From positions 1 to 33,298 of the forward strand of contig NZ_NOXU01000010.1 in the NCBI RefSeq assembly GCF_002251795.1: a DNA stretch of 33,298 nucleotides, written 5' to 3'. The notes below the pieces were generated by a model that was not told the DNA's origin, searched no databases, and was given only the letters and a program-made list of their open reading frames with translations. Below, piece after piece: positions 3,025-21,487 of the stretch. Numbering within the stretch: the first letter of the stretch is position 1; each line of letters starts with the position of its first letter. Origin of the DNA: Niveispirillum lacus (lineage in GTDB: Bacteria > Pseudomonadota > Alphaproteobacteria > Azospirillales > Azospirillaceae). The position numbers and the translations under genes are program-made.

Positions 3025-4611
3025 CTACTTCACGCCGGACACCCCTCCAGCGTGCAAGTCAGACAGCCCCGCTCCAGGCTGCGTCCGCACGCTGATACAG
3101 GTCAGGAACGAGACGGCAATGCCGATCAGCAATTGCCAGGGGAAGGCCAACGACTTCCAGGCAGCAGGAAGCCCCAACATATCCACAATGTAATCCTGCT
3201 GCAGCACAATGGCCAGAAAGCCTGTGACCAGTGCTGCCATCACCGAGGCTGAAGACCCGCGCCGCGTGAACACGGCCGCGAAATAGACGCCAAGCAGCCC
3301 AGCATAGGCAAAGGTCATCACCCCAAGTACAAACTCCAACAACGGGGCATCGCTATACTGCTGCCAGTAGTAACAGACGATGGACATCCCGAACAACAAA
3401 CCACCCAGTAGTAGCATGCTGAATTGTCCAGCACGCACATAATGCGCCTCTGGCTTCATCTGCTGACGCGCCTCCATCCAGGGGCGGTAGAAATCCTGGA
3501 TGAGGACGGATGACATGGAGATCAAACCGGAATTCACGGCCGCCGCCGCAATCACCCCCACCGTGACAAACCCCCGCAGACCCGGCGGAATCTGGCTCAG
3601 GATAAAATGCATGAAGATGGTGATCTTCTCGCCATTGAATTCGCCGCTAACCCCGCTGCCGACCCGCATCATCAAATCCGGCCGATCGTAAAATATATAG
3701 AGCAGGGACCCGATGGAGATGAAAATGAATACAACCGGGACGGCAACAAAAACCGAAACATAGAGCGCCCGGCTGCCCTCGCCATGGTTGCGACAAGATA
3801 GCAACCGCTGAGTGGTGTCCTGGTCCAGCCCGAAATTCCCGACATTCAGCAAGGCAAAGCCCGTGACGATCGACAGCAGGGTGAATGGCGCCGAAAAATC
3901 CAGCGATAGGTCGAACAACCGCAGCTTGTCCTCTCCACTCGGTGTGCTGGACAGCGCCGTGACAATCTCCCCCATCGACAGCGGGATCAGGTTCAACAGA
4001 AAGATCAGTACGGCAATTGCAGCGCCGACATAGATCACCACCTGCACCAGATCGCTCCAGATCACGGCGCGAAGGCCACCGATGAAAGTGAAGGCCAAGC
4101 CAAATACTACGAGAATCAAAGATGAAAGTACAATGTCCTGCGGTTCAATATCCAGGAAGACGATCATTGAAACAGCGATAGAGGCCAGATAGAGCCGGGC
4201 GCCGCTGGCGAACAACCGCCCGACCAGATACATCCCTCCAGCCGCCCGCATGGCGGAGGCACTGTAACGATGGCGTAACAGTTCATACACCGTGGAGGCA
4301 TTCACCGCATAGAAGCGAGGCATCAACACCTTGGCAACAATGAAGGCTGCAACCAAACACCCGAGATAGCTGGTGAGATAAGTATAGTCGCCGCGATAAC
4401 CATAATCTGGAGCCCCCAGAAAGGTTGCGGCCGATTGTGTGGCGGACAGGACGGAGATGGCGACAAGCCACATGGGTACTCGTTGGCCGGCTAGGAAGTA
4501 ATCCGATGCGTTCTCCAACTTTGATCTAGACGACCACATACCGGCAACGGCGATGATCAAGATGTACCCAAGCAGGATCGACCAGTCCAAAATGGTAAAC
4601 TCAAGTTCCAT
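3025..4611 (-). CDS. Sodium/solute symporter (SSS/SLC5 family)
   Basis: A 528-residue integral inner-membrane protein with about 13-14 hydrophobic segments. Family features are the N-terminal WSILLGYILIIAVAGMWSSR helix, the SDYFLAGQR segment after TM1, the SATQSAATFLGAP motif in TM2, and GGLRAVIWSDLVQ around residue 190, a hallmark of the SSS fold. The length matches family members. GGAGA precedes the ATG at 4611. It lies 183 bp downstream of the TonB receptor on the same strand, so co-transcription is likely. SSS proteins couple Na+ to uptake of sugars, sialic acid, amino acids or similar. In this context GlcNAc, MurNAc or a related amino sugar is the probable substrate, by inference only. 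Its 3' end abuts the IS110 remnant but the C-terminus looks complete. Confidence 0.9.
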   Translation of the reverse strand: MELEFTILDWSILLGYILIIAVAGMWSSRSKLENASDYFLAGQRVPMWLVAISVLSATQSAATFLGAPDYGYRGDYTYLTSYLGCLVAAFIVAKVLMPRFYAVNASTVYELLRHRYSASAMRAAGGMYLVGRLFASGARLYLASIAVSMIVFLDIEPQDIVLSSLILVVFGLAFTFIGGLRAVIWSDLVQVVIYVGAAIAVLIFLLNLIPLSMGEIVTALSSTPSGEDKLRLFDLSLDFSAPFTLLSIVTGFALLNVGNFGLDQDTTQRLLSCRNHGEGSRALYVSVFVAVPVVFIFISIGSLLYIFYDRPDLMMRVGSGVSGEFNGEKITIFMHFILSQIPPGLRGFVTVGVIAAAAVNSGLISMSSVLIQDFYRPWMEARQQMKPEAHYVRAGQFSMLLLGGLLFGMSIVCYYWQQYSDAPLLEFVLGVMTFAYAGLLGVYFAAVFTRRGSSASVMAALVTGFLAIVLQQDYIVDMLGLPAAWKSLAFPWQLLIGIAVSFLTCISVRTQPGAGLSDLHAGGVSGVK

Positions 4612-4794: not shown

Positions 4795-7518
4795 TCAATA
4801 ACGAAGCGTGGCTGAGATGCCGATAGTCCGCCCGATGATGTTGTAGGTGTCGGGATAGGTGTTGAAGCTACCAGCATTGGTGGGGGTCGGCGGGTCAGTC
4901 TTGAATACATTATCCACACCGAGATTGACCGTCAGCGTCTCCAGCGGCTTGACCGACAGGGCAAGGTCGAAATAATCCTTGGCCCCGATACGGCCCGTGC
5001 TGCCGGCGGCGCTGTCCCGCAAACCGCCGATGCGCTGCCAGCCAAGTTGCGCCGTGACCATACCCACATCCCAGGCCGCCGAGACGCGATGACGATAATC
5101 AGCGGCGACCAGCGATACGGCGTCGGACGAGCAGGCAAAGCCATAGGTGCCCTTGCAATCCACCGGCTGCAACACTTCGTTGCGCTGGATCGTGTACTTG
5201 GTCACGATATTACCCTGGTATGCCAGTCGCAGCCGCTCACCAAGCGCACTCTCAGACAGGTCAATCGTATAGCTGACGCTGATATCGAGGCCCTTCTGTT
5301 CGATGACGCCCAGGTTGCGGTCGACGGGGAAGCCATTCAGGATGAAGCCCGTGGTCGGATCGCGCGTAACCGCTGCGCAGAGCGGATTATCCGCCACGGG
5401 GTTGGTAATATAGCAGCTGGTCAGGGCGTCGATGGGCTGGATCTGGCCGACCGCGTCCTTCAGCTTGATCTGATACCAGTCAACAGTGGCCGTGAACCCG
5501 TCCAAGAGGTCCGGGGTCAGCACGGTGCCGGCGGTGTAGGTGACGCCCCGCTCCGGCTTGATATCGGGATTGCCGCCGAAGAAGTAACTACCACGCAAGT
5601 TGGCAGCATCGCGTGAATTGTAGCTGCCGGCTGCGGGGGCATTGAACCGGCGGCACTGTTCGGCATTGCCGGTGCCCAGCGTACAGGGATCGCCCGCGTA
5701 ACGTGGGTTCAGGCGCGCCACCGTCACCAGATTGGCAAAGGGGATGGACGAGGTGGGAGCCGCAAATTCCCCGATATTGGGGGCGCGGATGACCTTCTGC
5801 CGCGACCCGCGGAAGCGGATATTGTCATCAACAACCCAGGTTGATGCCAGCTTGTTGGTGTCAAACCGCCCGGCATTGGAATAGTCAGAGGTGCGATAGG
5901 CCGCCTCGACATTCAGTTCCTTGATGAAGTCCATGTCGGCCAGCAGCGGCACCAGCACTTCACCATAGAATTCGTTGGAGGAGAAAGAGCCGCTGACCGG
6001 CAGCTCGGTTCCCTGGCGATAGGACAGGCCCAGACCAAGGGCGGCATCATGCGCCACCGTCCCCTTTTCATCCCGGTATTCATAGCCGACGGCAAAACCC
6101 AGCGGGCCCGCCGGCAACTCGAACAGGTCGGCGCTGGTGCCGGCCAGGGTTGCAGCCGTCACGAACTGTTCACGTGCCCGGATATCACGCTGGAAACTCT
6201 GGCCGAAGGTGCTGAGATCAGCACCGGGGCCAAAAATGTCCACGGTGTTGGCGATGGCGGCAAAGCGGCTGGTGCCATCAGCATTGTTGCGGATAGCATC
6301 ACCGTTTACGGTCGTTTCTTCCTCTGTACGGCCGTACTGCGCGTAGACATCCCAATTGGTGCTACCGGTCAGGTCACCCTTGAAGCCGAGTTGCGTCTGA
6401 TAGGTGTTGCGTTCGGTATCGGCCGTGATGATGCCCAGTTCGCCCAGCGACCTGTTCACACGCACCTGCGCCACACCATTGACGAAGGTCAACAGGTTGC
6501 GGGCCTCGGTCGGCAGGAATCGGTTATCCTGACGGATGCCCACGACCTCGTTCACCGCCACCGGCTGAGAGCCGGAACGGCTGGACCCGGTGGTCTGCAC
6601 GTTGGTGAACATGCCCCGGCCATAGGCGGTCACGCCTTCCGCCAGCTCATAGTCAAAGAAGGTGGACGCGTTGTAACGCTCCATTGGCTGGATCAAGATA
6701 TAATCTGGTGTGAAGTTGGATGTCTGAGGGGTCAGTGTGAACGCACCAGCATCCGTGAAGGAGAAGGTGCGGCCGCTGGCCAAATCGGTGAAATTGCCGC
6801 CCGCCCCCGGCACCAGACCGGGACGGTCCAGGGCAAAGGCGCGATCACCAGCCCGCAGTACCTCACGCCTAGTATAATCCAGATAGCCAACGATATGGCC
6901 GCGGTCGCCGATGGTGCCGCCGGCGGTTGCATAGCCGCCATATTGCGCCCCGCCATCCTTGGCATGCTCATAGGTCGCACCGGCCTCATAGCCCTCGAAC
7001 TCGGTATCGATTACGAAGTTGACGACACCGGCCACAGCGTCGGCACCATAGACGGCGGCGGCACCGCCGGTCAAAACGTCAACGCGCTTCAGCAGCGGGG
7101 CGGGAATTGAGTTCACGTCCACAGCATTGCGGAAGCTGAACGGCACGGCGCGCGTGCCATTGATCAGCACCAGGGTGCGGTTCTGGCCGAAATTTCGCAG
7201 ATCAAGGGTTTGGGCACCATAGGCATCACTGCCGGCCGAGGTGGCGTTCACGCCGCCGGCCAGCTGCGGTAGCTTGACGGAGAAATCCTCCACCGTCAGT
7301 GCGCGGTCCAGGCGGATCTGCTCCTGCGAGGTCGCGGCTATCGGGCTGGTGGAGACAATCTCGGCACGCGGAATACGCGACCCGGTCACCACAATCTCTT
7401 CCAGCACCACAGCGTCTGCGGGACCGGCTACACCCTGCGCCTGCGCCTGCGGGGCCATTGTGAGACAGGTTGCCAGAGCCGTTGCCCCCAGCAGAGCCTT
7501 TGTTGAATACTTACCCAT
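4795..7518 (-). CDS. TonB-dependent outer-membrane receptor
   Basis: A 907-residue outer-membrane transporter. It has a signal peptide (MGKYSTKALLGATALATCLT, then MAPQAQA), then EEIVVTGSRIPR, the TonB-box-like start of the plug. Plug motifs are VLINGTRAVPF, VDVLTGGAAAVYGADAVAGV and VNFVIDTEFEGYEAG. A long barrel follows with the usual C-terminal block (DNVFKTDPP, then NIIGRTIGISATLRY ending in an aromatic residue). I chose the ATG at 7518 because AGGAGGG lies just upstream and the signal peptide starts there. An open extension to 7623 lacks these features and covers the promoter. It precedes the SSS symporter and has TGGT-type half-sites upstream, so it is probably the outer-membrane step for a cell-wall or chitin-like saccharide. 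The ligand is inferred from neighbours. Confidence 0.95.
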   Translation of the reverse strand: MGKYSTKALLGATALATCLTMAPQAQAQGVAGPADAVVLEEIVVTGSRIPRAEIVSTSPIAATSQEQIRLDRALTVEDFSVKLPQLAGGVNATSAGSDAYGAQTLDLRNFGQNRTLVLINGTRAVPFSFRNAVDVNSIPAPLLKRVDVLTGGAAAVYGADAVAGVVNFVIDTEFEGYEAGATYEHAKDGGAQYGGYATAGGTIGDRGHIVGYLDYTRREVLRAGDRAFALDRPGLVPGAGGNFTDLASGRTFSFTDAGAFTLTPQTSNFTPDYILIQPMERYNASTFFDYELAEGVTAYGRGMFTNVQTTGSSRSGSQPVAVNEVVGIRQDNRFLPTEARNLLTFVNGVAQVRVNRSLGELGIITADTERNTYQTQLGFKGDLTGSTNWDVYAQYGRTEEETTVNGDAIRNNADGTSRFAAIANTVDIFGPGADLSTFGQSFQRDIRAREQFVTAATLAGTSADLFELPAGPLGFAVGYEYRDEKGTVAHDAALGLGLSYRQGTELPVSGSFSSNEFYGEVLVPLLADMDFIKELNVEAAYRTSDYSNAGRFDTNKLASTWVVDDNIRFRGSRQKVIRAPNIGEFAAPTSSIPFANLVTVARLNPRYAGDPCTLGTGNAEQCRRFNAPAAGSYNSRDAANLRGSYFFGGNPDIKPERGVTYTAGTVLTPDLLDGFTATVDWYQIKLKDAVGQIQPIDALTSCYITNPVADNPLCAAVTRDPTTGFILNGFPVDRNLGVIEQKGLDISVSYTIDLSESALGERLRLAYQGNIVTKYTIQRNEVLQPVDCKGTYGFACSSDAVSLVAADYRHRVSAAWDVGMVTAQLGWQRIGGLRDSAAGSTGRIGAKDYFDLALSVKPLETLTVNLGVDNVFKTDPPTPTNAGSFNTYPDTYNIIGRTIGISATLRY

Positions 7519-7733
7519 TGTCCCTCCTGTTCTTCCATCATTCGCCTGCCGAGACACGCCCCGAACGACGCGATCCAAGCATGCATTCAGTTCTGTTCGG
7601 ATGTAAAGACAGAACAATACCAATTAAAACCACTTTGGTTATAGCGTGGCATTATCGCCACGTCGGGATTGACCACCCGGCCTCCTCCGCTGGGCGTCCC
7701 AGCGCTGCTACAGAAGGGTTGGCCGGCCGCCTT
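7519..7733 (-). promoter_or_regulatory. Receptor promoter region with GntR-type half-sites
   Basis: This gap holds AATACCA at 7616-7622 and a near-perfect palindrome TAAAACCA-CTT-TGGTTATA at 7625-7643 (7 of 8 arm bases match). Similar ACCA/TGGT half-sites lie upstream of murQ, the kinase gene and the first gntR. A hairpin CGTGGC-ATTATC-GCCACG is at 7644-7661. A second stem-loop CGCTGGG-CGT-CCCAGCG at 7688-7704 follows the methyltransferase stop and may be a weak terminator (no T-run). Confidence 0.5.
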
Positions 7734-8414: not shown

Positions 8415-8761
8415 TTCCGCTTGCTCCCCTGATTGTTCGCGTGAACCCGGACGGATGGACAGGGACAGGCCCCGCAGAACCGCCGCCTGTGGCCGTGCAA
8501 AACTGGTTGGTCAGTGACTGGCATGGCCGGAGACAGGCCTGTCACAATGCGCCGGACCGCCGCCGATGACGGCCGAGGCTGGCAGCCAGAATCCCCCGCT
8601 CTGCGCCATGATGGCCGGGCCAAGTGGTCTCATTTCGTTGCTATGTGGAACTATATTGGTATTAGATTAGCTGTCAAGTGGCCTGGGGCCTTGGTGCTGG
8701 CATTATTGGGGCAGACCGCATAGAATTTTACGTTTCCTGAGCCCGGTGTAAGGAGTGGTCG
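8415..8761. promoter_or_regulatory. Intergenic region between methyltransferase and gntR-1
   Basis: The 347-bp divergent gap carries TGGTCT at 8625-8630 and TGGTATTA at 8657-8664, the same half-site types as at the murQ/kinase promoter. The gntR gene has a clear AAGGAG ribosome-binding site about 7 bases before its GTG. I do not see a confident -35/-10 pair, and no gene is visible here. Confidence 0.4.
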
Positions 8762-9502
8762 GTGAAGTTAGCGCTCAATTCCGACTGGAATAACTACACG
8801 CCACTGTATATCCAACTGGCTAACAAGCTCCGCGACAGCATTAGCGAAGGCCAGATCACGTCTGGGGAAGCGCTTCCCTCCGAAAGGGCATTGAGCGAAA
8901 TAACTGGCACGTCCCGGGTGACCATACGCAAGGCCATTGATCAGCTGGTGGAGGAGGGGCTTCTAGAACGCCGCCATGGCTCCGGTACCTTCATCACTGC
9001 CCAGCTTGAACAGGCTGGCACCACTCTGTCGGGGTTCAGTGCCGACGCAATCCATCGTGGACAGTCCCCGAAATCCATCTGGCTGGTCAAGACCGTGTCA
9101 TCAGCAACTGCCGATGAGGCCATGGTCCTGGCCATATCGCCTGCGACGCAGGTCGCACGGCTGGCCCGCGTCCGGCTGGCCGATGATGAACCGCTGGCCA
9201 TTGAACATGCCATCGTCCCTCTTTCGCTGTTGCCCCCCATGGATACCATCGGCGATAGCCTCTATGCCGCTCTCGAGCGCCAGGGCAACAAGCCGGTGCA
9301 GGGCATCCAGAAGATCCGTGCCTCTCTGGCAACACCGATTGAGGCAGGGCTGCTCTCCATCCGCGAGGGGGCCGAGGTGCTGCGGATCGAAAGGCGGACC
9401 TTCCTGGCCGACGGCACTCCCGTTGAGCTGACACGGTCGGCCTATCGCGGTGACCATTATGAGTTCGTGGCCGATCTGCGTGAATGTGTAGACTATCGGT
9501 GA
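8762..9502 (+). CDS. GntR/HutC-family regulator (NagR-like), paralog 1
   Basis: A 246-residue transcription factor. The N-terminal winged HTH (residues ~10-75) contains PLYIQLANKLRDSI, ALPSERALSEITGTSRVTIR and EEGLLERRHGSGTFI, characteristic of GntR. The C-terminal UTRA effector domain (~90-240) contains ARLARVRLADDEPLAIEHAI and IERRTFLADGTPVELTRSAY. UTRA domains of the NagR/DasR group bind GlcNAc-6-P or similar sugar phosphates; here that is inference. The GTG start is supported by AAGGAG. A close paralog lies at 12307-13047. It faces the anmK operon convergently and shares its terminator region. Likely role: repressor of the receptor and salvage genes, and possibly of itself. Confidence 0.92.
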   Translation: MKLALNSDWNNYTPLYIQLANKLRDSISEGQITSGEALPSERALSEITGTSRVTIRKAIDQLVEEGLLERRHGSGTFITAQLEQAGTTLSGFSADAIHRGQSPKSIWLVKTVSSATADEAMVLAISPATQVARLARVRLADDEPLAIEHAIVPLSLLPPMDTIGDSLYAALERQGNKPVQGIQKIRASLATPIEAGLLSIREGAEVLRIERRTFLADGTPVELTRSAYRGDHYEFVADLRECVDYR

Positions 9503-9538
9503 AAAAGGCCCTGCATGTCGGCGAACCGGCACGCAGGG
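9502..9538 (-). terminator. Intrinsic terminator of the murQ-anmK operon
   Basis: On the minus strand, past the anmK stop, CCCTGC/GCAGGG arms (9509-9514 and 9533-9538) extend inward through GTCGG/CCGGC to a 4-base loop. The stem is about 13 bp with one mismatch. It is followed by CC and five T (A run at 9502-9506 on the plus strand). The T-run overlaps the gntR-1 stop codon, so this compact element separates two convergent genes. Confidence 0.65.
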
Positions 9539-9602
9539 TAAGTCCGCCGCGCCCGGCAGTACCGTGATGTGCGCGACGGGGGAGGAAGGGTGAAGGCCGG
9601 GA

Positions 9603-10703
9603 TCAGTGCGGGGGTCGCGCAATCCGGCCGCCGGTTTGTGGCTGGGGAACACCGGTGGTACCGGGTACGCTCAACGGCAGCCCGCGCAGGCAGCGGACAG
9701 CCAGGAAGGCGAAGGCCTCGGCCTCAATCGTGTCGCCGCGCCAGCCCAATGTGTCGGCATTGATGCAAGGCGCGCCCAACGCCTCCGTCAAGCGGGCCAC
9801 CAGCGTGGCATTGCGCCGACCACCGCCGCACAGGACCCAGGCCTTGGGCGGGGCGGGCAGCAAGGGGATCGAGGCGGCAACCGACACCGCTGTGAATGCT
9901 GTCAGGGTAGCGGCCCCGTCGGCCGCCCCCAGCCCCTGTACCGCATCCAGGGTAAAATCGTAGCGGTCGAGGGATTTGGGTGCGGCGCGCGCGAAATAGG
10001 CGTGCTGCATGAGCCGGTCCATCACCGGGCTGCTGATCTGCCCCTGCCGGGCCAGCCGGCCATCGGCATCAAAGGAACCCAGACCGTGCTGCACCATCCA
10101 TTGATCGATTAGCCCGTTGCCAGGCCCTGTATCAAAGGCCAGAAGCCGGCCATCGCCACCGATCCAGGTAACATTGCCAACCCCGCCCAGATTGAGGAAG
10201 GCCACCGGATGATCCAGCCCGGCAGTGGCTGCAAGTGCGGCATGGTAAAGCGGCACGAAGGGCGCCCCCTGCCCGCCGGCTGCAACGTCGGCACTGCGGA
10301 AATCATGCACAACATCAATCCGGTAGCGCGCCGACAACGCACAAGCATCCCCAACCTGCACCGTGCATGACAGGTCGGGCCGGTGCAGCACCGTCTGACC
10401 GGGAAAACCGATCAGGTCGATGCGACCGGCATCCGGGCCGGACAGCATCGCGTCGATGGCCCGGATGTGGGCGGCTGTCACCGCAGCTTCGGCGGCGGCA
10501 AAACTGGGCAGCGCTGCCCGGCTGGCCGCATGCGGTGCGGCCAGCGCGTCGGCAATGGCACTCTCAATCGCCTGTCGTTCATCCGGCAGATAGTCGAAGG
10601 CGGCAGCAGGTCCGAAACCCAGCAGGGTTTCCCCATCCGTTTCCAGGATGGCTGCATCGATCCCGTCAAGGGAGGTGCCACTCATCAAACCAAGCACACG
10701 CAT
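9603..10703 (-). CDS. anmK: Anhydro-N-acetylmuramic acid kinase
   Basis: A 366-residue cytoplasmic kinase, close to the E. coli length of 369. It cleaves the 1,6-anhydro ring of anhydroMurNAc with water and phosphorylates it to MurNAc-6-P using ATP. Visible motifs are GLMSGTSLDGID at the N-terminus, DFRSADVAAGGQGAPFVPLYH mid-protein (DxRxxDxAxGGQGAP signature), NLGGVGNVTWI, FDTGPGNGLIDQW and CGGGRRN near the C-terminus. Two starts compete. The ATG at 10703 has GAGG about 7 bases upstream; the ATG at 10715 overlaps the upstream stop as ATGA. It is the last gene of the operon, and its product feeds MurQ. Identity is firm. Confidence 0.95.
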   Translation of the reverse strand: MRVLGLMSGTSLDGIDAAILETDGETLLGFGPAAAFDYLPDERQAIESAIADALAAPHAASRAALPSFAAAEAAVTAAHIRAIDAMLSGPDAGRIDLIGFPGQTVLHRPDLSCTVQVGDACALSARYRIDVVHDFRSADVAAGGQGAPFVPLYHAALAATAGLDHPVAFLNLGGVGNVTWIGGDGRLLAFDTGPGNGLIDQWMVQHGLGSFDADGRLARQGQISSPVMDRLMQHAYFARAAPKSLDRYDFTLDAVQGLGAADGAATLTAFTAVSVAASIPLLPAPPKAWVLCGGGRRNATLVARLTEALGAPCINADTLGWRGDTIEAEAFAFLAVRCLRGLPLSVPGTTGVPQPQTGGRIARPPH

Positions 10704-10711
10704 GGGAAACC

Positions 10712-12298
10712 TCATTCTGGAGGGGGGGATTGACCCTGCGACCGGTGCACATGGGCGGCCGTGACCGGGATGACCAAGGCCAGGGCGGGAAGGGCCAGGA
10801 TGCCTGTACAGGTGAAGAACCAGGCGTAACCCAGTTGATCCAGCAACAGGCCGGAGGTGCCGGCCAGCAGCTGCGGGATCAGAAAGGCAAAGGAAATCAG
10901 CAGGGCATACTGCGCCCCGGCATGGGCACGACAGGTCAGCCCGGTCAGAAAGACGATGAAGACGGCTGAGACCACACCACTCCCGAACCCGTCGAGAAAC
11001 ACAGCCAGTGCCAAGCGCCAGGTGTCGGGCGGCGACAGCGACAGCCAGGCAAAGGCCAGATTGCCAAGCGCAGCAGTCACCCCACCGGCCACCAGGGCAC
11101 GTCGCAGCCCCAGCCTGCCGACGGACAGACCCCCGACCGCCACACCGGTGATGGCCGCGGCCAGGCCCAGCGTTCCTTCCACCGCCCCCACCGTTTGGGC
11201 TGTGAAACCGACATTGGCGTAAAGCGTCTTGCCAATCGCCGCCATCATCAGATCGCCCAGCCGGAACAAGGCCGTGAATAGCAGCAATACCAATCCAAAC
11301 CAGCCATAGTGAGCGATGAACTCCACAAGCCCGGCTGTGGCCGTGCTGCGTGCTAGGGGGGAGGTGGCGCCATACCGGCGCACCCAGGGAACCGACAGGG
11401 CCGCCGCCAGAAACGGCAGCAGCGCGAGGGCCCCGACACCCGCCACAATATCACCCCGCCCCGGTCCCCCGCCCAGCGGGGCCATCACCCGGGGTACGGC
11501 TAACCCCACGGCCAGGATCAGGGCGGAGGCCAGCAGGACCACCCCGGTCGTGACCAGCACGCCGGCCAGCCCCTTGGAAGGGGTCATGACCGGTCGGTCA
11601 CCGTCCCCCCCGCCGGGCGTTGGAACGAGCATGATGACCAGGCACAGCGCCAGCATGGCCCCCCCCGCTACCGTATAGGCGGGGGCCCAGCCAACCGTGC
11701 CTGCCAGGAACAGGGTGCCGCCACCGCCTGCCACCATTGCCGCCCGGTATCCCCAGAGATAGGCTGCGGCCAACACACCGGTTTCAGCGGCATCCCGGCT
11801 CAATTCAATGCGCCAGGCGTCAATGGCAATATCCTGACTGGAGGACCAGAACACCGTCAGCACAGCTACCAGGGCCACCGGCAGCAGCCCCGTCGCCGGG
11901 TCCAGGTGAGCCTGGGTGAACAAGGCACCTGCCACACCTAACTGGCACAGTGCGGCCCAGCCCCGCCGATGTCCCAACAGCCCCCCGACCCCCGGCGCGC
12001 GATAGCGGTCCAGAACCGGGGCCCAGAGGAATTTCAGATTGTTCAGCAGGCTGACCCAGGCCATGAACCCGATCAGGGCCGCTTCGATTCCCGCCTGTGC
12101 CAGGCGCAGTGAGAGGGTTGAAAAGGCCAGCAAATATGGAAGCCCTGACGAAAAGCCCAGCATCATCAGGTACAGCGCCCGGCTGTCGACGCGCGGGCGA
12201 CCCAGACGCGCCAGCGACGCTGTCCCACCGGTGGGGGCGGGGACTACCGGCATCGGGCACCCATCCCCAGCCCCAGTTTCGTCCATACGCTTTTCCAT
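10712..12298 (-). CDS. AmpG-like MFS muropeptide permease
   Basis: A ~528-residue inner-membrane transporter with about 12-14 hydrophobic segments. AmpG-type motifs are LGFSSGLPYLLAFSTLSLRL after a hydrophilic N-terminus, NNLKFLWAPVLDRY, and SSQDIAIDAWRIEL (compare AmpG SxQDIxxDAW). AmpG imports GlcNAc-anhydroMurNAc and its peptides by proton symport. Its place between two GntR/MurNAc genes and anmK supports the same role here. The ATG at 12298 is chosen. The frame opens at GTG 12325, inside the gntR-2 3' end, and another ATG at 12286 has GGAAAA before it. The stop overlaps the alternative anmK start. Which sugar or peptide it carries is inferred. Confidence 0.88.
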   Translation of the reverse strand: MEKRMDETGAGDGCPMPVVPAPTGGTASLARLGRPRVDSRALYLMMLGFSSGLPYLLAFSTLSLRLAQAGIEAALIGFMAWVSLLNNLKFLWAPVLDRYRAPGVGGLLGHRRGWAALCQLGVAGALFTQAHLDPATGLLPVALVAVLTVFWSSSQDIAIDAWRIELSRDAAETGVLAAAYLWGYRAAMVAGGGGTLFLAGTVGWAPAYTVAGGAMLALCLVIMLVPTPGGGDGDRPVMTPSKGLAGVLVTTGVVLLASALILAVGLAVPRVMAPLGGGPGRGDIVAGVGALALLPFLAAALSVPWVRRYGATSPLARSTATAGLVEFIAHYGWFGLVLLLFTALFRLGDLMMAAIGKTLYANVGFTAQTVGAVEGTLGLAAAITGVAVGGLSVGRLGLRRALVAGGVTAALGNLAFAWLSLSPPDTWRLALAVFLDGFGSGVVSAVFIVFLTGLTCRAHAGAQYALLISFAFLIPQLLAGTSGLLLDQLGYAWFFTCTGILALPALALVIPVTAAHVHRSQGQSPPPE

Positions 12299-12306
12299 GC
12301 CTGGGC

Positions 12307-13047
12307 CTAGCTGTTTTCGCACCAATCGCGAAGGTCAGCGACAAATTCATAGCGGTCACCGCGATAGGCCGACCTTGTCAACTCCACCGGTGTGCCATCG
12401 GCCAGGAAGGTCCGACGTTCAATTCGGAGCACCTCCGCGCCTTCCTTGATGGACAGAAGGCCGGCCTCAATGGGTGTGGCCAAGGAAGCGCGGATTTTCT
12501 GCACTCCGTTGGACGGGCGGTTACCATGATGGTCCAGCGCGGCATAGAGGCTGTCACTGATCAGCTCGATAGACGGCAACATGGCGACAGGCACAATGGC
12601 ATGTTCAATGGCCAACGGCTCCTCATCCGCGATGCGGACGCGAGCCAGCCGTGCGACCAGGGTGCCCGCCGACAAAGCCAGTACGGCCGCCTCGTCCACC
12701 GTGGCGACAGACACCATCTTCACCAGCCAGATCGACCCCGGCGCCTGACCGCAATGCACGGCATCGGCGCTGAATCCCGACAGGCTGGTGCCCGGCTGTT
12801 CAGGGCGCGGCGTAATGAAGGTCCCCGACCCGTGGCGGCGCAGCAGCAGGCCTTCATCCACCAGCTGGTCAAGCGCCTTGCGGATGGTTACGCGCGATGT
12901 CCCGGTCAGTTCGCTCAATACCCGTTCAGATGGCAGGGCATCACCATAGGCGATCTGCCCCTCATGGATGCCGTCACGAAGCCGGTTGGCCAACTGGATG
13001 TAGAGCGGCGTATGGTCATTCCAGCGCGTTTGGAGATTAAACTTCAC
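12307..13047 (-). CDS. GntR/HutC-family regulator (NagR-like), paralog 2
   Basis: A 246-residue protein with the same architecture as the 8762-9502 gene: winged HTH (PLYIQLANRLRDGI, ALPSERVLSELTGTSRVTIR) and UTRA domain. The two proteins are highly similar throughout, for example IQ/VQKIRASLATPIEAGLLSI, then KEGAEVLRIERRTFLADGTP. This points to duplication. The GTG start overlaps the murQ stop (GTGA), so the two are translationally coupled. It sits inside the operon it probably controls, so feedback regulation is likely. Whether the two paralogs share operators or respond to different effectors (for example GlcNAc-6-P versus MurNAc-6-P) cannot be seen from sequence. Confidence 0.92.
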   Translation of the reverse strand: MKFNLQTRWNDHTPLYIQLANRLRDGIHEGQIAYGDALPSERVLSELTGTSRVTIRKALDQLVDEGLLLRRHGSGTFITPRPEQPGTSLSGFSADAVHCGQAPGSIWLVKMVSVATVDEAAVLALSAGTLVARLARVRIADEEPLAIEHAIVPVAMLPSIELISDSLYAALDHHGNRPSNGVQKIRASLATPIEAGLLSIKEGAEVLRIERRTFLADGTPVELTRSAYRGDRYEFVADLRDWCENS

Positions 13048-13949
13048 CGGCCATTCTCCGACAGGGCGCGGTGCGCGGCGGAAAGCGCATCACGCAGGCT
13101 GCCACCCGCGTTGGTCAACTGGTCTTGGGCGTCCGCCAGCGGCAGCCCCACCGCCACAAGACAGGCGATCCGAATATTGCCATCGGCCTGCTGCAAGGCT
13201 TCCGCAGCGGCCGGCAAAGCACATCCTGTGATCTCAACGACGATGCGGGTCCCGCGATCACGTAGTTTCTCATTGGACACTCGCATGTCCACCATCATGC
13301 CGCGATAGACGCGACCCAGGCGGACCATTATGGCTGTAGACAGGATATTGATGGCTATCTTCTGGGCCGTGCCGGCCTTCATCCGGGTCGATCCGGCGAT
13401 AAACTCCCCCCCTGTCTCCAGACAGATGGGATACTCAGCCGCCCGCAGCAGCGGGGTTCCGGAGTTATTGGCCATGCCGATGGTCAGCGCGCCGGCAGCA
13501 CGCGCCACCGCGACGGCGGCTACGGTGAAGGGCGTGGTGCCGCTGGCAGCCAGCCCGATGACGACATCAGCCGGTCCCACCTGGGCCGCGCGGATTACCG
13601 CCTCGCCCTGCTCGGCACGGTCTTCGGCATCTTCGGCGCTGGCCGACAGCGCCCCCATTCCGCCTGCGAGCGCAAAGACCGATCTTTCCTTCGGCCAGTT
13701 GTAGGTCGGGCCCAGTTCGACCCCGTCCTGAACCGCAAGTCGGCCGGATGTGCCCGCCCCGACATAGATCAGACGCCCAACCTCACCCAGACGCGCCGCC
13801 GCCGCATCGGACGCAGCCGCCAGTACCTGGGTCTGCGAGCGGACAGCAGCTACAGCATCGAACTGGCTCTCCAGCATGGCCTGAACGGCATCAGTCGTCG
13901 GCCAGGCATCCATGTCCAGATAGCGGGCGCTGATTGACTCTGTTTTCAT
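13044..13949 (-). CDS. murQ: N-acetylmuramic acid 6-phosphate etherase
   Basis: A 301-residue cytoplasmic SIS-domain enzyme (E. coli 298). It removes the lactyl ether of MurNAc-6-P, giving GlcNAc-6-P and D-lactate. Motifs are IYVGAGTSGRLAVQDGVELG (~61-80), AEDAED (~105-110), VVIGLAASGTTPFT, and STRMKAGTAQKIAINILSTA with the family-specific MVDM block after it. Glu79 and Glu109 match in spacing the E. coli catalytic Glu83 and Glu114. It is the first gene of the murQ-gntR-ampG-anmK operon and diverges from the sugar-kinase gene across a 355-bp regulatory region. Its two products are handled by dld and, presumably, by nag genes elsewhere. Confidence 0.96.
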   Translation of the reverse strand: MKTESISARYLDMDAWPTTDAVQAMLESQFDAVAAVRSQTQVLAAASDAAAARLGEVGRLIYVGAGTSGRLAVQDGVELGPTYNWPKERSVFALAGGMGALSASAEDAEDRAEQGEAVIRAAQVGPADVVIGLAASGTTPFTVAAVAVARAAGALTIGMANNSGTPLLRAAEYPICLETGGEFIAGSTRMKAGTAQKIAINILSTAIMVRLGRVYRGMMVDMRVSNEKLRDRGTRIVVEITGCALPAAAEALQQADGNIRIACLVAVGLPLADAQDQLTNAGGSLRDALSAAHRALSENGR

Positions 13950-14305
13950 GGGCGGTAAACCTCAACAGACGGGTAAGGGTAGGGCAGCTCAACACCAGCC
14001 GACAGGCGCCTGCCTGAAAGGGGCGATGGACAAGGCGTCGAAAACCGGTATGTGCCAGATCGTTCAAAGCCGCGACGCCTCATATAAAGGCCATTTTAAT
14101 ACCATTACAAGCCATAAAATGGCATGTCCTGAAATTCATAGAAAACCCCGCCATACTGACACATATGTCCGCTCAGGAGGACCTCATCCGACGTGTCAAT
14201 TGACAACCGCAGAAACCAAGTGTAATACCACTTTAATAAGACCACCACTTGCTGGTCTCTTCCCTGCAGGGTGTGTCTATGGAGACCAGAAAGGCCGTAT
14301 AAGTG
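13950..14305. promoter_or_regulatory. Divergent operator region between murQ and kinase genes
   Basis: This region is AT-richer than its flanks and densely symmetric. A 9-bp perfect inverted repeat GCCATTTTA/TAAAATGGC lies at 14090-14098 and 14115-14123, with TAATACCA at 14097-14104. A 12-bp perfect palindrome TGTCAATTGACA is at 14194-14205. TAATACCA (14223-14230), TAAGACCA (14237-14244) and TGGTCTCT (14253-14260) follow, the last two forming an inverted pair. The TGGT/ACCA half-sites recur near the receptor and gntR-1 genes, as expected for NagQ/NagR-type GntR operators. Regulation is inference. Confidence 0.6.
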
Positions 14306-15187
14306 ATGCAACACTTCCTTGGCGTTGACGCTGGCGGGACAAAATGCCGTGCCCGGTTGGTGGATGTCTATGGTCAGACGTTGGGCGAAGGGGTTGCCGG
14401 CCCTTCCAATCTGCGTTTCGGGGCAATAGCTGTGGCCAGTCAGATTACCACAGCTTGCCTTGCAGCCGTTGCTGCGGCAGGGCTCGATGCGACCATTCTG
14501 AGCCAATGCCAGGCCGGACTGGGTATCGCTGGCTTCAGCCGGGCCGGCAATCTGGATGACTTGCTACCGCTGCTTCCGGAATTCGGTTCGGTCAAGATAA
14601 CCAGCGATGGCTATGTCGCGCTGCTGGGCGCCCATTCAGGGTCGGACGGGGGCGTGATCATCGTGGGCACGGGCAGCATCGGCCTGGGTCAGCGCGGCGC
14701 AAACCTGTTTCGGGTTGGCGGTTATGGATTTCCGATTTCTGACCAGGGCAGCGGTGCGGATATCGGGCTGTCTGCCGTGCGGCTGATGCTGCAAGCCCAT
14801 GACGGGCTGATCGCCCGCACACCCCTGACCGACGCGGTCATGGACAGTTTTGGTGGTGCGCCGGCTCAGGTGATCCAATGGATGGATACAGCCACCCCTA
14901 CCCATTATGCTACCTTGGCCCCCCTGGTGACGCAACAGGCCAGCCGGGGGGACCCGCTTGCCCGCTCCATCATGTTGAAAGCGGCTGTGGAAGTCGGGCG
15001 GATGGTTGAGACGGTGATGGCGCGAGGCGCACCGGTCTGCTCCCTGCTGGGCGGCTTGTCACAGGAAGTCCAGGGTTGGATGAGCAGCGATCTGCGGCAA
15101 AGGCTGAAGCCACCGGATGGCGATGGCGTACAGGGCGCTGTGCTGCTTGCGCAGAAGGCGGGTCCCAACGGCGTGATCTTCGGCTAG
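14306..15187 (+). CDS. BadF/BadG-type amino-sugar kinase (GlcNAc/GlcN kinase-like)
   Basis: A 293-residue ASKHA-fold ATPase. The N-terminal FLGVDAGGTKCRARLVD is the phosphate-1 loop. IIVGTGSIGLGQR (~116-128) and DQGSGADIGLSAV (~146-158) match the BadF/BcrA/BadG family members that act as glucosamine or GlcNAc kinases. SLLGGLSQ near the C-terminus is the adenosine loop. ATG 14306 is preferred over GTG 14303. It leads a plus-strand set with GH84 and dld, divergent from murQ. The likely reaction is ATP-dependent phosphorylation of the GlcNAc released by GH84; MurNAc or glucosamine are alternatives. Confidence 0.85.
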   Translation: MQHFLGVDAGGTKCRARLVDVYGQTLGEGVAGPSNLRFGAIAVASQITTACLAAVAAAGLDATILSQCQAGLGIAGFSRAGNLDDLLPLLPEFGSVKITSDGYVALLGAHSGSDGGVIIVGTGSIGLGQRGANLFRVGGYGFPISDQGSGADIGLSAVRLMLQAHDGLIARTPLTDAVMDSFGGAPAQVIQWMDTATPTHYATLAPLVTQQASRGDPLARSIMLKAAVEVGRMVETVMARGAPVCSLLGGLSQEVQGWMSSDLRQRLKPPDGDGVQGAVLLAQKAGPNGVIFG

Positions 15188-15342
15188 TGGCTGATGGTTC
15201 CCTCCGTTCATATTTAAAGCGTTGATTTTACAAGAAAATATAGACTTAAGGCTACATTACTCAGGTCCATGGGTGCCTGTCGGAGTCAAACTGGGGAGTT
15301 CTGGCGGAACATGCCCGGCATTGCCAGAAGGGAGAAAGCAAC

Positions 15343-16404
15343 GTGCAGCTTGGTACTATTGAGGGATATTTCGGCAGCCCATGGACTTGGCAACAGCGGA
15401 CGGAAACCATGCGCTTTCTGGCCCCGCATGGCTATGGGTTCCATATTTATGCGCCCAAGGCAGACACCTATCTGCGTCGGGAATGGCGCACACCACACCC
15501 CGAGGCAACCATGGCCGAACTCGCCCGGTTCGGCGCTGGCTGCCGGGCCGCGGGGGTGCGTTTTGGTGTGGGCCTCAGCCCCTATGAAGCCTACAAGGAC
15601 TTTGACACTGGCATGGCCGATGACCTAGGGGCCAAACTGCGTTTTCTGGACGCGTTGGGGATCGACGATCTGGCCATCCTGTTCGACGATATGGATGGCA
15701 ATCTGCCGGACCTGGCTGAACGTCAGGCTCGGATCATCAACGCCGCCGCCGAACGTACCGGCGCCAGCCGCATCATCGTCTGCCCCACTTATTATTCCGA
15801 TGACCCGGTGTTGGACAAGGTGTTCGGGGCCCGTCCGCCGGATTACCTGGCAAGCCTGGGGCGTCTTCTTGATCCCGCCATCGACATCTTCTGGACAGGG
15901 GAAGAGGTATGTTCGCGGGAATTCTCACCACACCATCTGGACAAGATTGCCGATCTGCTGCGCCGCCGGCCGCTTTTATGGGACAATTACCCCGTCAATG
16001 ACGGGCAGCGCATGTCCCAGCATCTGCATCTGCGGGCTTTCACAGGGCGGCACGGCGATCTCCTGAAGGATCGGATCACGGGACATGCCGTCAATCCGGC
16101 CCTGCAGCCCGTACTGACCCGCATTCCCATGCTGACTCTGCCGGAGAGCTATCGGCAGGGGCGTGACTATTGCTATGGCGTGTCTTTTCGGGCAGCGGCA
16201 ACCCAGGTGCTGGGCGCGGAACTCGCGGCACTGGTCACGCTAGACCTGCTGACATTGCAGGAATTTCCCCGGGATCTGCTGGGCAGCCGTCAGCAGGCGC
16301 TGTTGGATCGCTACGGCGCCCACCCACATCCGGGTGCTATTGAGATCGTACAATGGCTGCGGGGTGATTATCGCATGGACGATTCTGTCGTTCAGACGCA
16401 GTAA
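15343..16404 (+). CDS. Intracellular GH84 beta-N-acetylglucosaminidase
   Basis: A 353-residue protein with no signal peptide, consisting of just a GH84 TIM-barrel. Family signatures: IEGYFGSPWTW at residues 6-16 (catalytic-domain start), YAPKADTYLRREWR (36-49), the catalytic aspartate pair in ILFDDMDG (Asp115-Asp116), IFWTGEEVCS (182-191) and LWDNYPVND (212-220). GH84 enzymes hydrolyse terminal beta-GlcNAc by substrate-assisted catalysis. Most bacterial examples are secreted and multidomain; human O-GlcNAcase also belongs here. Start is GTG 15343, with GGGAG upstream. Between a GlcNAc-type kinase and dld, opposite murQ/anmK, it is best read as the cytoplasmic enzyme splitting GlcNAc from anhydroMurNAc or MurNAc, the job usually done by NagZ. 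That substrate is inference. Confidence 0.9.
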   Translation: MQLGTIEGYFGSPWTWQQRTETMRFLAPHGYGFHIYAPKADTYLRREWRTPHPEATMAELARFGAGCRAAGVRFGVGLSPYEAYKDFDTGMADDLGAKLRFLDALGIDDLAILFDDMDGNLPDLAERQARIINAAAERTGASRIIVCPTYYSDDPVLDKVFGARPPDYLASLGRLLDPAIDIFWTGEEVCSREFSPHHLDKIADLLRRRPLLWDNYPVNDGQRMSQHLHLRAFTGRHGDLLKDRITGHAVNPALQPVLTRIPMLTLPESYRQGRDYCYGVSFRAAATQVLGAELAALVTLDLLTLQEFPRDLLGSRQQALLDRYGAHPHPGAIEIVQWLRGDYRMDDSVVQTQ

Positions 16405-16444
16405 CCGCCGCGCGGACCCGCAGACCATTGGGCTGGAGCGCTGA

Positions 16445-18190
16445 ATGATCAAGCACATGTCGCCACAGGATCGCGTGCGGCTGCTCTCGCGCCTGCGCTG
16501 CATTGTTGGCCGCCGCTACGTTCTGACACAGGGCATCAGCACAAGACACTATTGCACCGGCTATCGGTTCGGTGGGGGGCCAGTGCTGGCCGTTGTCCGG
16601 CCCGGCAGCCTGGTTGAACAGTGGCAGGTGGTACAGACCTTGATACAGGCCGGCTGTATCATCATCATGCAGGCGGCAAACACGGGTCTGACCGGCGGCT
16701 CTACGCCTGATGGGGATGGGTATGACCGGGACATCGTTCTGATCAGCACCACGCGCCTTAACATCGTTCAGATCATCCAACAGGGCCGGCAGGTCATCTG
16801 TCTGCCCGGCGCCACCCTGACACAGTTAGAGGAAAGGCTGCGGCCGCTGGGACGGGAGCCGCACTCGGTCATCGGTTCTTCCTGCATCGGCGCGTCGGTG
16901 TTTGGTGGCATCGCCAATAATTCCGGCGGCGCCTTGGTACAGCGGGGACCGGCCTATACCGAACTCGCGCTGTTCGCCAGGGTGGAGAGTAATGGCACCC
17001 TAGTACTGGTGAACAGGCTGGGCATTGCGTTGGGCGATGATCCAGAAACAATCCTGCATCGACTAGAGACGGAGCAATATGGTCCGGGCGACATCGAGCC
17101 TGATGCGGGGCCAGCATCCGACCACGGCTATGATCAGCATGTGCGAGATATTCACTCCGACCTGCCCGCCCGGTTCAACGCAGACCCGTCACGGCTTAGG
17201 GATGTGTCCGGCTGTGCGGGCAAGCTGATCATGTTCGCCGTGCGGCTGGATACGTTCGTTCTCCAACGCGACACCAGGGTCTTCTATATCGGCACCAACC
17301 GACCTCAGACATTGACGAACCTGCGGATCGCTTTGCTGACCCGCCTGCAGGAACTGCCCATCGCGGCTGAGTATATGCATCGCGATGCCTATGCGATGGC
17401 CGCCACCTATGGGAAAGACACGTTCCTAGCCATACGCCTGTTCGGTGCCAGACGGATGAAAACCCTGTTCCGCTTGAAATCCTTGGCTGATCAGGCGGCG
17501 CGGATACTGGGCATGTCCCCTCGTAACGTGGCCGACCGGCTGCTTCAGTGGATCAGCCACTTGTTTCCAAACCACCTGCCCCGCCGCCTCAACCAGTTTC
17601 ACGAACGTTATGACCATCACCTGATGCTGAAGGTCAGTGCAGATAATAGCGCAGCGGTGCAGGTGCTGCTGGACAGCGTTCTGGGGGCGGCAACGGAGGC
17701 AGACGATGAGGCCTATTTCGAATGCACCACAGCGGAGGCGGAGAAGGCTTTCCTGCATCGGTTCGCGGCAGCCGGTGCCGTGGTTCGTTACTGCACTATC
17801 ATGGGGAGCAAGACTGGCGGTATGGTAGCACTTGATATTGCGCTGCGGCGCAATGATCGCGAATGGTTTGAACAGTTGCCTCCTAACCTGGATGCGATGA
17901 TCGACAAGAAGATCTATTATGGCCATTTTCTGTGCCATGTCCTGCATCAGGATTATGTGCTGCGTCCGGGGCACGATCCACATGCGGTCGAGCAGCGGAT
18001 GCTCGGGGAACTGGACAAGCGCGGCGCGCGTTACCCAGCAGAACATGGATTTGGCCATCTTTATGCTGCACCGGCGTCCCTGGTTGAGTTCTATCAAACC
18101 CTTGACCCGTGCAACTGCTTCAATCCAGGCATCGGCCAGACCAGCAAGTTTCAGCAATGGTCTGCCGGAGCAGAGCCGCCATCCTTCTAA
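16445..18190 (+). CDS. dld: Quinone-dependent D-lactate dehydrogenase
   Basis: A 581-residue FAD enzyme (E. coli Dld 571). The N-terminal PCMH-type FAD domain shows GYRFGGGPVLAVVRPGSLVE, MQAANTGLTGGSTPDGDGYD, QVICLPGATLTQLEERLRPL and REPHSVIGSSCIGASVFGGI. The membrane-binding and cap domains contain FHERYDHHLMLKV, and the C-terminus has YPAEHGFGHLYAAP followed by DPCNCFNPGIG. Dld is a peripheral inner-membrane protein that oxidises D-lactate to pyruvate and passes electrons to quinone. GGAG precedes the ATG, 40 bp after the GH84 gene. D-lactate is the by-product of MurQ, so pairing the two closes the carbon balance of MurNAc breakdown. Confidence 0.96.
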   Translation: MIKHMSPQDRVRLLSRLRCIVGRRYVLTQGISTRHYCTGYRFGGGPVLAVVRPGSLVEQWQVVQTLIQAGCIIIMQAANTGLTGGSTPDGDGYDRDIVLISTTRLNIVQIIQQGRQVICLPGATLTQLEERLRPLGREPHSVIGSSCIGASVFGGIANNSGGALVQRGPAYTELALFARVESNGTLVLVNRLGIALGDDPETILHRLETEQYGPGDIEPDAGPASDHGYDQHVRDIHSDLPARFNADPSRLRDVSGCAGKLIMFAVRLDTFVLQRDTRVFYIGTNRPQTLTNLRIALLTRLQELPIAAEYMHRDAYAMAATYGKDTFLAIRLFGARRMKTLFRLKSLADQAARILGMSPRNVADRLLQWISHLFPNHLPRRLNQFHERYDHHLMLKVSADNSAAVQVLLDSVLGAATEADDEAYFECTTAEAEKAFLHRFAAAGAVVRYCTIMGSKTGGMVALDIALRRNDREWFEQLPPNLDAMIDKKIYYGHFLCHVLHQDYVLRPGHDPHAVEQRMLGELDKRGARYPAEHGFGHLYAAPASLVEFYQTLDPCNCFNPGIGQTSKFQQWSAGAEPPSF

Positions 18191-20923: not shown

Positions 20924-21487
20924 TTACTCATACTCGACCAGCACCATGATGAAGCCGCTGTAGGTACCGTCCGGGGCGGACCCACTGACGGCAAAGCGGC
21001 CGCCGATCTTGAGGGTAGAGGACCCGCCGGCGCCGATCGCGCCTGTCAGGTTGTTGCCGGCGCTGATCGGCGTGCCGCTGTCCAGGCAATGCTCCAGGTT
21101 GCCGATTTCCATGGCGGTGGAAGACGGACCCGCAATGTTCCGGGTGGTCTGGTTGCTGTTGGTCGTGACCGTGATGGCCGCCCCTGGCGTACCGGTGATG
21201 ACGGCGGAACCCAGGGAAGGCGTCCCCAAGATCGAGAGGGAGGAGCCCGCGGTGACATTGGCCGAGCAGCCGGCGCCGATGCCCACGGTCAGGTAATCGG
21301 TGATTCCCGTGTTGGAGGGCTTGGATATCGTGCCGGCGGCCAATGGGGTCGTGGAACCGATGGTCAGGCCGGGCACCAGGGTGATGCTTGTCGGGATGCC
21401 GATGCCGGCGGCGGCCAGGGTGGGCGAGGCGGTGCAGCTCGAGAGAAGGGTAGCGGCGAGGAGGGCGGACAGGCGCTTCATGATCAT
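20924..21487 (-). CDS. DUF4402 pilus subunit-like protein B
   Basis: A 187-residue exported protein in the same family as its downstream neighbour: ITGTPGAAITVTTNSNQTTR mid-domain, then IGGRFAVSG, then TYSGFIMVLVEYE at the end. The N-terminus (MIMKRLSALLAATLLSSCTA, then SPTLAAAG) can be read as a lipoprotein signal (LSSC lipobox) or as a type I site after LAAA. It has two further Cys residues (GCSAN, HCLDS) that could form a disulfide. Its ATG overlaps the usher stop (ATGA), so the genes are coupled. It is probably the second fibre subunit, possibly tip or anchor. Confidence 0.8.
   Translation of the reverse strand: MIMKRLSALLAATLLSSCTASPTLAAAGIGIPTSITLVPGLTIGSTTPLAAGTISKPSNTGITDYLTVGIGAGCSANVTAGSSLSILGTPSLGSAVITGTPGAAITVTTNSNQTTRNIAGPSSTAMEIGNLEHCLDSGTPISAGNNLTGAIGAGGSSTLKIGGRFAVSGSAPDGTYSGFIMVLVEYE

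Follow-up and report, generated by a model that had tools for sequence, protein, structure and literature searches.

The 33,298-base contig NZ_NOXU01000010.1 of Niveispirillum lacus (the window, which is the whole contig; the genome comprises 4.97 Mb and is estimated to be 100% complete) carries a locus for the salvage of the cell-wall sugars N-acetylmuramic acid (MurNAc) and N-acetylglucosamine (GlcNAc), in which a gene for a short protein of glycoside hydrolase family 84 (GH84) accompanies anmK, murQ and an ampG-like gene. Judged from sequence and gene context, the locus is accessory and probably regulated, and short, signal-less GH84 proteins are likely to be functional analogues of the family 3 (GH3) enzyme NagZ, which they would replace in a single alphaproteobacterial family and across many of the Pseudomonadales, while working beside it here and in most other sampled carriers. 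The balance also tips towards a wider proposal, in which short cytosolic GH84s act as a non-orthologous second NagZ. They would serve as the housekeeping muropeptide beta-N-acetylglucosaminidase throughout much of the Pseudomonadales (Marinobacter and the lineages with GH84 in a core gene cluster) and, through a GH84 lineage of its own, in an alphaproteobacterial family where GH3 is almost missing. An earlier reading of the window, the original prediction, had assigned the NagZ step to GH84. This function is supported by the near exclusion of the two enzymes in the Pseudomonadales, by co-occurrence and linkage in the alphaproteobacterial family (f109), by two linked loci elsewhere (L104 and L090) and in part by a third (L100); replacement of NagZ is untrue for N. 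lacus itself.

GH84 and NagZ in the Pseudomonadales

The Pseudomonadales, a name given here because of the NCBI lineage of Marinobacter, were sampled as 293 genomes (completeness unstated) drawn evenly from the order in which our tool groups Marinobacter changyiensis. NagZ was counted at E < 1e-50, and matches to its model NF003740 with E above 1e-18 were taken as not NagZ. GH84 is present in 80 genomes and NagZ in 161: 78 have GH84 only, 159 NagZ only, two both and 54 neither (Fisher p 2.7e-32, uncorrected for phylogeny). Moving the NagZ threshold to 1e-35 or to 5e-62 still leaves two genomes with both and 78 with GH84 only, and in one of the two, G670, the GH84 match spans just 56 profile positions. 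All 20 genomes of Marinobacter and Oleiphilaceae with a GH84 of the window's type are without a NagZ match at E 0.001. M. nauticus DSM 50418, for instance, has GH84 and no NagZ match at that E value; it is a strain other than VT8 which, under the former species name Marinobacter aquaeolei, is listed in PMC5371407 among genomes with AmgK, MurU and AnmK, so that the downstream pathway exists in this species.

Gene order around GH84 was compared in 60 of the 80 GH84-positive genomes of the order, taken down the score list, with 20 omitted (L198-L257). Neighbours include tig in 39 contexts, clpP and clpX in 37, mltG, tmk, holB and pilZ in 31, and tatD in 27. The arrangement runs from a ketoacyl synthase gene through an aminotransferase IV gene, mltG (YceG family), tmk, holB, pilZ, tatD and gcvT or hrpB to GH84, and on to fadB with a thiolase gene, tig, clpP and clpX, members being missing in some contexts. 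Because this arrangement is conserved across diverse species (trigger factor identity goes down to 44%, that of MltG to 39%), GH84 seems to belong to the core genome of these lineages. A dctP gene is found in nine of the 60 contexts.

An exchange in situ, with GH84 at the exact genomic place of nagZ, is unsupported by 20 NagZ contexts from the order (19 from genomes without GH84, together with G832). None of them matches the mltG, holB, tig, clpP or clpX probes; a distant tatD match occurs in two and a thiolase match in three, one of which has fadB too. LexA is a neighbour of NagZ in 13 of the 20 contexts and YkuD likewise in 13, where the YkuD genes lie directly upstream of nagZ. In Escherichia coli, nagZ is located downstream of mltG-tmk-holB-tatD, an arrangement on which this assessment does not draw.

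An alphaproteobacterial family nearly without GH3

In the family f109, GH3 matches turn up in two of 61 genomes and are partial in both (G500, with 7% contamination, and G523, 77% complete). GH84 of a second type is found in 33 of the 61 and AnmK in 34; 31 genomes have both, two GH84 only, three AnmK only and 25 neither (Fisher p 1.8e-11, uncorrected for descent), and GH84 follows AnmK by genus. Among the 31 carriers of both, 27 have the two genes on a single contig with 182-3431 bp between them. All three of the longer contexts have ampG, a YkuD gene and murQ divergent from anmK, a PIG-L deacetylase gene and GH84, while a fourth, ending at a contig end, has a peptidase M19 gene, GH84, anmK and murQ. 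In this family GH84 is the sole candidate found for the NagZ step, by a search that did not include GH20.

The f109 genera g290, g291 and g293 (15 genomes) have no GH84, and AnmK only as a short fragment in the contaminated G500, as if the whole recycling branch had been lost together. The product of the YkuD gene between ampG and murQ (L135:7440-7979; L136:12097-12630, minus strand; L137:7155-7682) displays no N-terminal hydrophobic stretch to the eye, and may be a cytosolic LD-carboxypeptidase replacing LdcA. The deacetylase of PIG-L type encoded between anmK and GH84 (L135:9933-10622, minus strand; L136:9373-10125; L137:9815-10504, minus strand) possibly acts on the released amino sugar.

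The GH84 protein and its lineages

The window's GH84 has 353 residues and, within Pfam and NCBIfam, matches only PF07555 and NF041654 at E 0.001. The latter, an equivalog model of long beta-N-acetylglucosaminidases, gives 111 bits against a cut-off of 1000, which is thus not reached, and the GH3 and NagZ models PF00933 and NF003740 find no match at that E value. Its longest frame from ATG, GTG or TTG begins at the barrel with no N-terminal extension, which leaves no room for a signal peptide; the description of the protein as signal-less was therefore correct, and we infer a cytosolic location. The Asp115-Asp116 pair and the WDN-x3-ND motif pointed out earlier are indeed present and conserved across relatives: across 146 close relatives and 13 sequences from f109, K39, D115, D116, Y151, W213, D214, N215 and D220 are kept, and N219 mostly. 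To call the protein single-domain was nearly right. Its predicted structure (predicted local distance difference test score, pLDDT, 93.5) is a GH84 barrel followed only by helices at 260-352, to be compared with chains of 447-474 residues in the OgOGA and TtOGA entries. In six of 85 other GH84 loci the longest frame extends upstream to take in a hydrophobic stretch, and these are probably run-through frames.

A quick maximum-likelihood tree (162 rows) unites the 146 short GH84 proteins, the window's included, in one clade (Shimodaira-Hasegawa-like approximate likelihood ratio test, SH-aLRT, 99) apart from OgOGA, 5diy and the f109 proteins, the last making a clade of their own (SH-aLRT 100). 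The window's protein groups with that of M. changyiensis and a Phycosocius set (SH-aLRT 90, below the starred level), and the Marinobacter GH84s are placed among alphaproteobacterial ones, separate from those of the core cluster. From these placements, absence of NagZ coincides with at least three GH84 lineages, those of the core-cluster Pseudomonadales, the Marinobacter type and f109. The short type is also met in metagenome-assembled genomes labelled Gemmatimonadaceae/Gemmatimonadetes, Longimicrobium and Sericytochromatia (L025, L026, L066, L084), by transfer or by binning error.

It might be argued that the exclusion of NagZ by GH84 records lineage history only, a few old losses and gains with no exchange of function. 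To be sure, the 293 genomes were compared without a species tree and 54 of them have neither enzyme, the core-cluster GH84 looks vertically inherited, and the two enzymes mostly coexist outside Marinobacter/Oleiphilaceae, the Pseudomonadales and f109. However, the coincidence with at least three GH84 lineages speaks against such an account, as does the fact that the GH84 of f109 follows AnmK by genus as well. We consider it unlikely, and prefer true replacement of NagZ in f109 and in the Pseudomonadales.

Linkage to recycling genes

Within the class sample, five of 384 other genomes have full-length relatives of the window's GH84, 48-58% identical; among named genomes, at least 80 further loci were detected at 51-61% identity. 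Linkage was surveyed in 85 loci, the five of the class sample and 80 listed ones, many of which end at contig ends. L104 (Sphingopyxis sp. L1A2A) has genes for a TonB receptor and a sodium:solute symporter (SSF), murQ, gntR, an HGSNAT-like gene, genes for a FAD-linked oxidase and a SIS protein, nagA, GH84, a kinase gene and anmK; nagA and the SIS gene, which is NagB-II-like, adjoin GH84. L090 (Sphingomonas sp. GM_Shp_1) has murQ, the SSF and TonB receptor genes, anmK, dld, GH84, a kinase gene and one for an S13 carboxypeptidase. L100, recorded as Arthrobacter sp., has GH84 and the kinase gene only, and its GH84 pairs with that of L090 on the tree. That linkage of GH84 with murQ should be unique to the window is rejected, for it recurs in L090, L104 and f109; that most relatives adjoin recycling genes is rejected too, with three of the 85 listed loci and none of the 60 Pseudomonadales contexts doing so. 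The original prediction had asked whether GH84, anmK and murQ stay linked in genomes without nagZ: they do in f109, nearly devoid of GH3, while the genomes of L090 and L104 keep a NagZ match. Of the two findings that the original prediction combined in a refuting condition, one applies and the other does not: N. lacus has a nagZ elsewhere in its genome, but the linkage is not confined to the window.

Genes of tripartite ATP-independent periplasmic (TRAP) transporters recur in 14 of the 85 listed loci, all from Marinobacter. Many of the open reading frames first chosen in L021-L024 received no Pfam family and are probably shadow frames.

Could GH84 be a cytosolic hexosaminidase of broad use, acting on chitobiose or other GlcNAc disaccharides brought into the cell, with murQ and anmK as incidental neighbours? 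The BadF-type kinase of the locus resembles NagK, nagA stands beside GH84 in L104, the TonB receptor and the symporter have no assigned substrate, and NagZ is available for recycling in the window's genome. Yet, by the known functions of their families, the products of anmK and murQ act on anhydroMurNAc and MurNAc-6-phosphate (MurNAc-6-P), and Dld would consume the D-lactate made by MurQ. Linkage with anmK and murQ occurs, moreover, with two separate GH84 types, and exclusion of NagZ is not to be expected of such an enzyme. We give this explanation little credence.

Evidence to the contrary

Several observations weigh against GH84 as a substitute for NagZ. One genome of the order, G832, has a full GH84 together with NagZ, and 54 of the 293 have neither enzyme; shared ancestry inflates the p values of both exclusion and co-occurrence. 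In f109, G523 combines GH84, AnmK and its partial GH3 match. The 60 Pseudomonadales contexts, which extend up to 17 kb, hold no match to anmK, murQ, ampG or the kinase gene, and window-type recycling neighbours are found at only three of the 85 GH84 loci among the matches listed, many of them cut by contig ends. NagZ was searched for in the genomes of 50 of the 80 listed loci, hand-picked by taxon and for isolates, eight of which had already been covered by a GH3 search in 18 genomes: of the 30 GH84 carriers outside Marinobacter/Oleiphilaceae, 27 have NagZ matches scoring 195 bits or more, 21 of them over the cut-off. The 27 include the genomes of all three linked loci (L090, L100 and L104), with matches of 205-220 bits. 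Solved GH84 relatives carry the names O-GlcNAcase, glucosaminidase or hyaluronidase; the kinase may act on MurNAc besides GlcNAc or in its stead; and GlcNAc-(anhydro)MurNAc as the substrate of GH84 is deduced from genomics.

N. lacus itself adds to these points. The search of its genome, which the original prediction had recommended, found seven GH3 matches, two in short frames with the motif KHIPGHG-x4-DSH. A canonical nagZ scores 252 bits on NF003740 (cut-off 207), and a NagZ-like paralogue (L006:1411-2442), with ISDC at the position of FSDD in the canonical copy, scores 195 bits, just below that cut-off. Because nagZ is present, GH84 is no replacement for it here, and the claim that it stands in the place of NagZ proved false for this genome. 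For the window we favour inducible salvage, with GH84 active alongside NagZ and perhaps serving disaccharides of the non-anhydro kind that have been imported.

Two smaller findings concern GH3 in other genomes. One favours substitution: in both f123 genomes with a window-type GH84, the GH3 matches are confined to long frames (714-867 residues). The other is G401, from the 18-genome search, with two partial GH3 matches that are perhaps a split nagZ.

Known systems and significance

As in recycling of the Escherichia coli type by AmpG, NagZ, AnmK and MurQ, the AmpG, AnmK and MurQ of the window each reach at least one NCBIfam cut-off and the same intermediates are expected; the locus differs in having GH84 and not a GH3 NagZ, plus a TonB receptor, a symporter, two GntR regulators and dld. 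The ampG-murT-murK-murQ cluster of Tannerella forsythia (PMC7670621) also unites AmpG, a MurNAc importer, a kinase and MurQ, but an AnmK ortholog is not predicted there and GH84 goes unmentioned in the sections drawn upon, the symporters and kinases being likened by description only. The short GH84s would share with NagZ (GH3, NF003740) the proposed reaction and the cytosolic location, yet their family is another and so, as judged from 20 NagZ contexts, is their position in the genome.

The window's GH84 is a relative of the human enzyme that removes O-GlcNAc. With the bacterial GH84 O-GlcNAcases OgOGA and TtOGA (2xsa, 5diy) it has in common the barrel, the catalytic residues and about 30% identity; unlike them it seems to be without the full helical bundle, belongs to a separate clade and has genomic links to cell-wall recycling. 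PMC4683255 proposes that the helical bundle recognises the protein portion of substrates. That our GH84 is an O-GlcNAcase, placed among recycling genes merely by the shared product GlcNAc, seems very improbable, in that the bundle proposed for protein substrates looks reduced to about 90 residues, OgOGA and 5diy fall outside the short clade, and such a role predicts neither the exclusion of NagZ, nor co-occurrence with AnmK, nor a place beside ampG, murQ and anmK.

We found no paper stating that GH84 substitutes for NagZ among titles and abstract starts in open-licence PMC, and the text consulted in PMC11980594 and PMC8950772 has no bearing on the matter. If GH84 does so in many bacteria, NagZ is no conserved step of Gram-negative recycling, and the view of NagZ as conserved within Gram-negative bacteria, expressed in PMC5371407, needs correction. 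Orphan bacterial GH84 proteins would gain a physiological role, and genome-based predictions of recycling would change for Marinobacter and its relatives. NagZ inhibitors have to spare human O-GlcNAcase. In these bacteria O-GlcNAcase inhibitors might, in turn, block recycling where NagZ-selective ones, the development of which is described in PMC3920638, would not.

The locus in Niveispirillum lacus

The families assigned at the outset (AmpG, AnmK, MurQ, BadF kinase, GH84 and Dld) are borne out by Pfam and NCBIfam scores (Table 1), with two reservations on finer assignment: the murQ product stays under the cut-off of the equivalog TIGR00274 (248 against 302 bits), and the kinase under that of NagK_SO3507 (NF046058; 217 against 370 bits). 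The gene list was incomplete, leaving out two GntR paralogues as well as the SSF and TonB receptor genes that recur in two linked loci. The genes had all been placed around one divergent promoter. This is true of murQ, gntR2, ampG and anmK, among which neighbouring genes overlap by 4 to 19 bases in operon-like fashion, and of the kinase, GH84 and dld genes, which leave the same region on the other strand; it is not true of gntR1, which is convergent with anmK and lies off the promoter. The products of gntR1 and gntR2 are 76% identical and their genes flank ampG-anmK.

Table 1. Features of the salvage locus, with positions in the window
Feature	Position	Strand	Support
SSF (sodium:solute symporter) gene	3025..4611	-	PF00474 88 bits; 55%/65% identical copies adjoin GH84/murQ in L090/L104
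TonB-dependent outer-membrane receptor	4795..7623	-	PF00593, PF07715; 54%/51% identical copies adjoin GH84/murQ in L090/L104
gntR1, GntR/UTRA regulator, convergent with anmK	8762..9502	+	PF00392, PF07702
anmK, anhydro-N-acetylmuramic acid kinase	9603..10715	-	NF007141 492 bits, cut-off 352
ampG-like muropeptide permease	10712..12325	-	TIGR00901 358 bits, cut-off 350
gntR2, GntR/UTRA regulator within the murQ-ampG-anmK run	12307..13047	-	PF00392, PF07702
murQ, N-acetylmuramic acid 6-phosphate etherase	13044..13949	-	NF003915 337 bits, cut-off 168
Divergent promoter region with two AATACCA boxes (14098, 14224)	13950..14302	.	Sequence and motif scan
BadF-type sugar kinase, GlcNAc and/or MurNAc kinase	14303..15187	+	PF01869 110 bits
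Short cytosolic GH84 beta-N-acetylglucosaminidase, proposed GlcNAc-(anhydro)MurNAc splitter	15343..16404	+	PF07555 194 bits, cut-off 25
dld, D-lactate dehydrogenase (Dld type)	16445..18190	+	NF008387 850 bits, cut-off 391; PF09330

Beyond gntR1 lie a methyltransferase gene and the genes for the TonB-dependent receptor and the SSF symporter. These last two probably belong to the locus, since both recur in the linked loci L090 and L104 and neither is found in 16 murQ contexts without GH84 (L139-L154, some of them short). The heptamer AATACCA, besides its two copies in the divergent region, precedes the TonB receptor gene (at 7616) and gntR1 (at 8657, minus strand); of its six occurrences in the window, four are thus upstream of locus genes, the others, at 7856 and 11286, being inside genes. 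It may serve as a regulatory operator for the TonB receptor gene, gntR1 and the murQ/kinase pair.

In the mechanism that we propose, the TonB receptor and the symporter, probably a sugar importer of the locus, would take up peptidoglycan sugars or disaccharides, while AmpG would import anhydromuropeptides. Cytosolic GH84 would then cleave GlcNAc-anhydroMurNAc or GlcNAc-MurNAc and so release the GlcNAc at the non-reducing end, through substrate-assisted catalysis with Asp115/Asp116, AnmK would yield MurNAc-6-P, and MurQ would turn out GlcNAc-6-phosphate (GlcNAc-6-P) and D-lactate, which Dld would oxidise. The BadF kinase would phosphorylate GlcNAc, perhaps MurNAc too, and the two GntR/UTRA proteins would control the locus. 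The route first described as self-contained would be so down to GlcNAc-6-P and D-lactate; the genes for NagA and NagB-II stand at another locus of the genome. A second murQ (49% identical) is located elsewhere, divergent from homologues of nagK, gntR, nagB-II and nagA.

The GH84 gene of the window was probably acquired, because GH84 of any kind is present in only two of 82 genomes of its family, the other being a different protein, from the same genus (G069:C1:573331-574260; L009, L281), with 649 residues and a long N-terminal extension that resembles a signal plus a further domain. Farther along the window (20924-23925), the gene of a DUF4402 protein lies beside that of an 813-residue protein that weakly matches CarboxypepD_reg; together they may represent a secretion cluster of pilus type.

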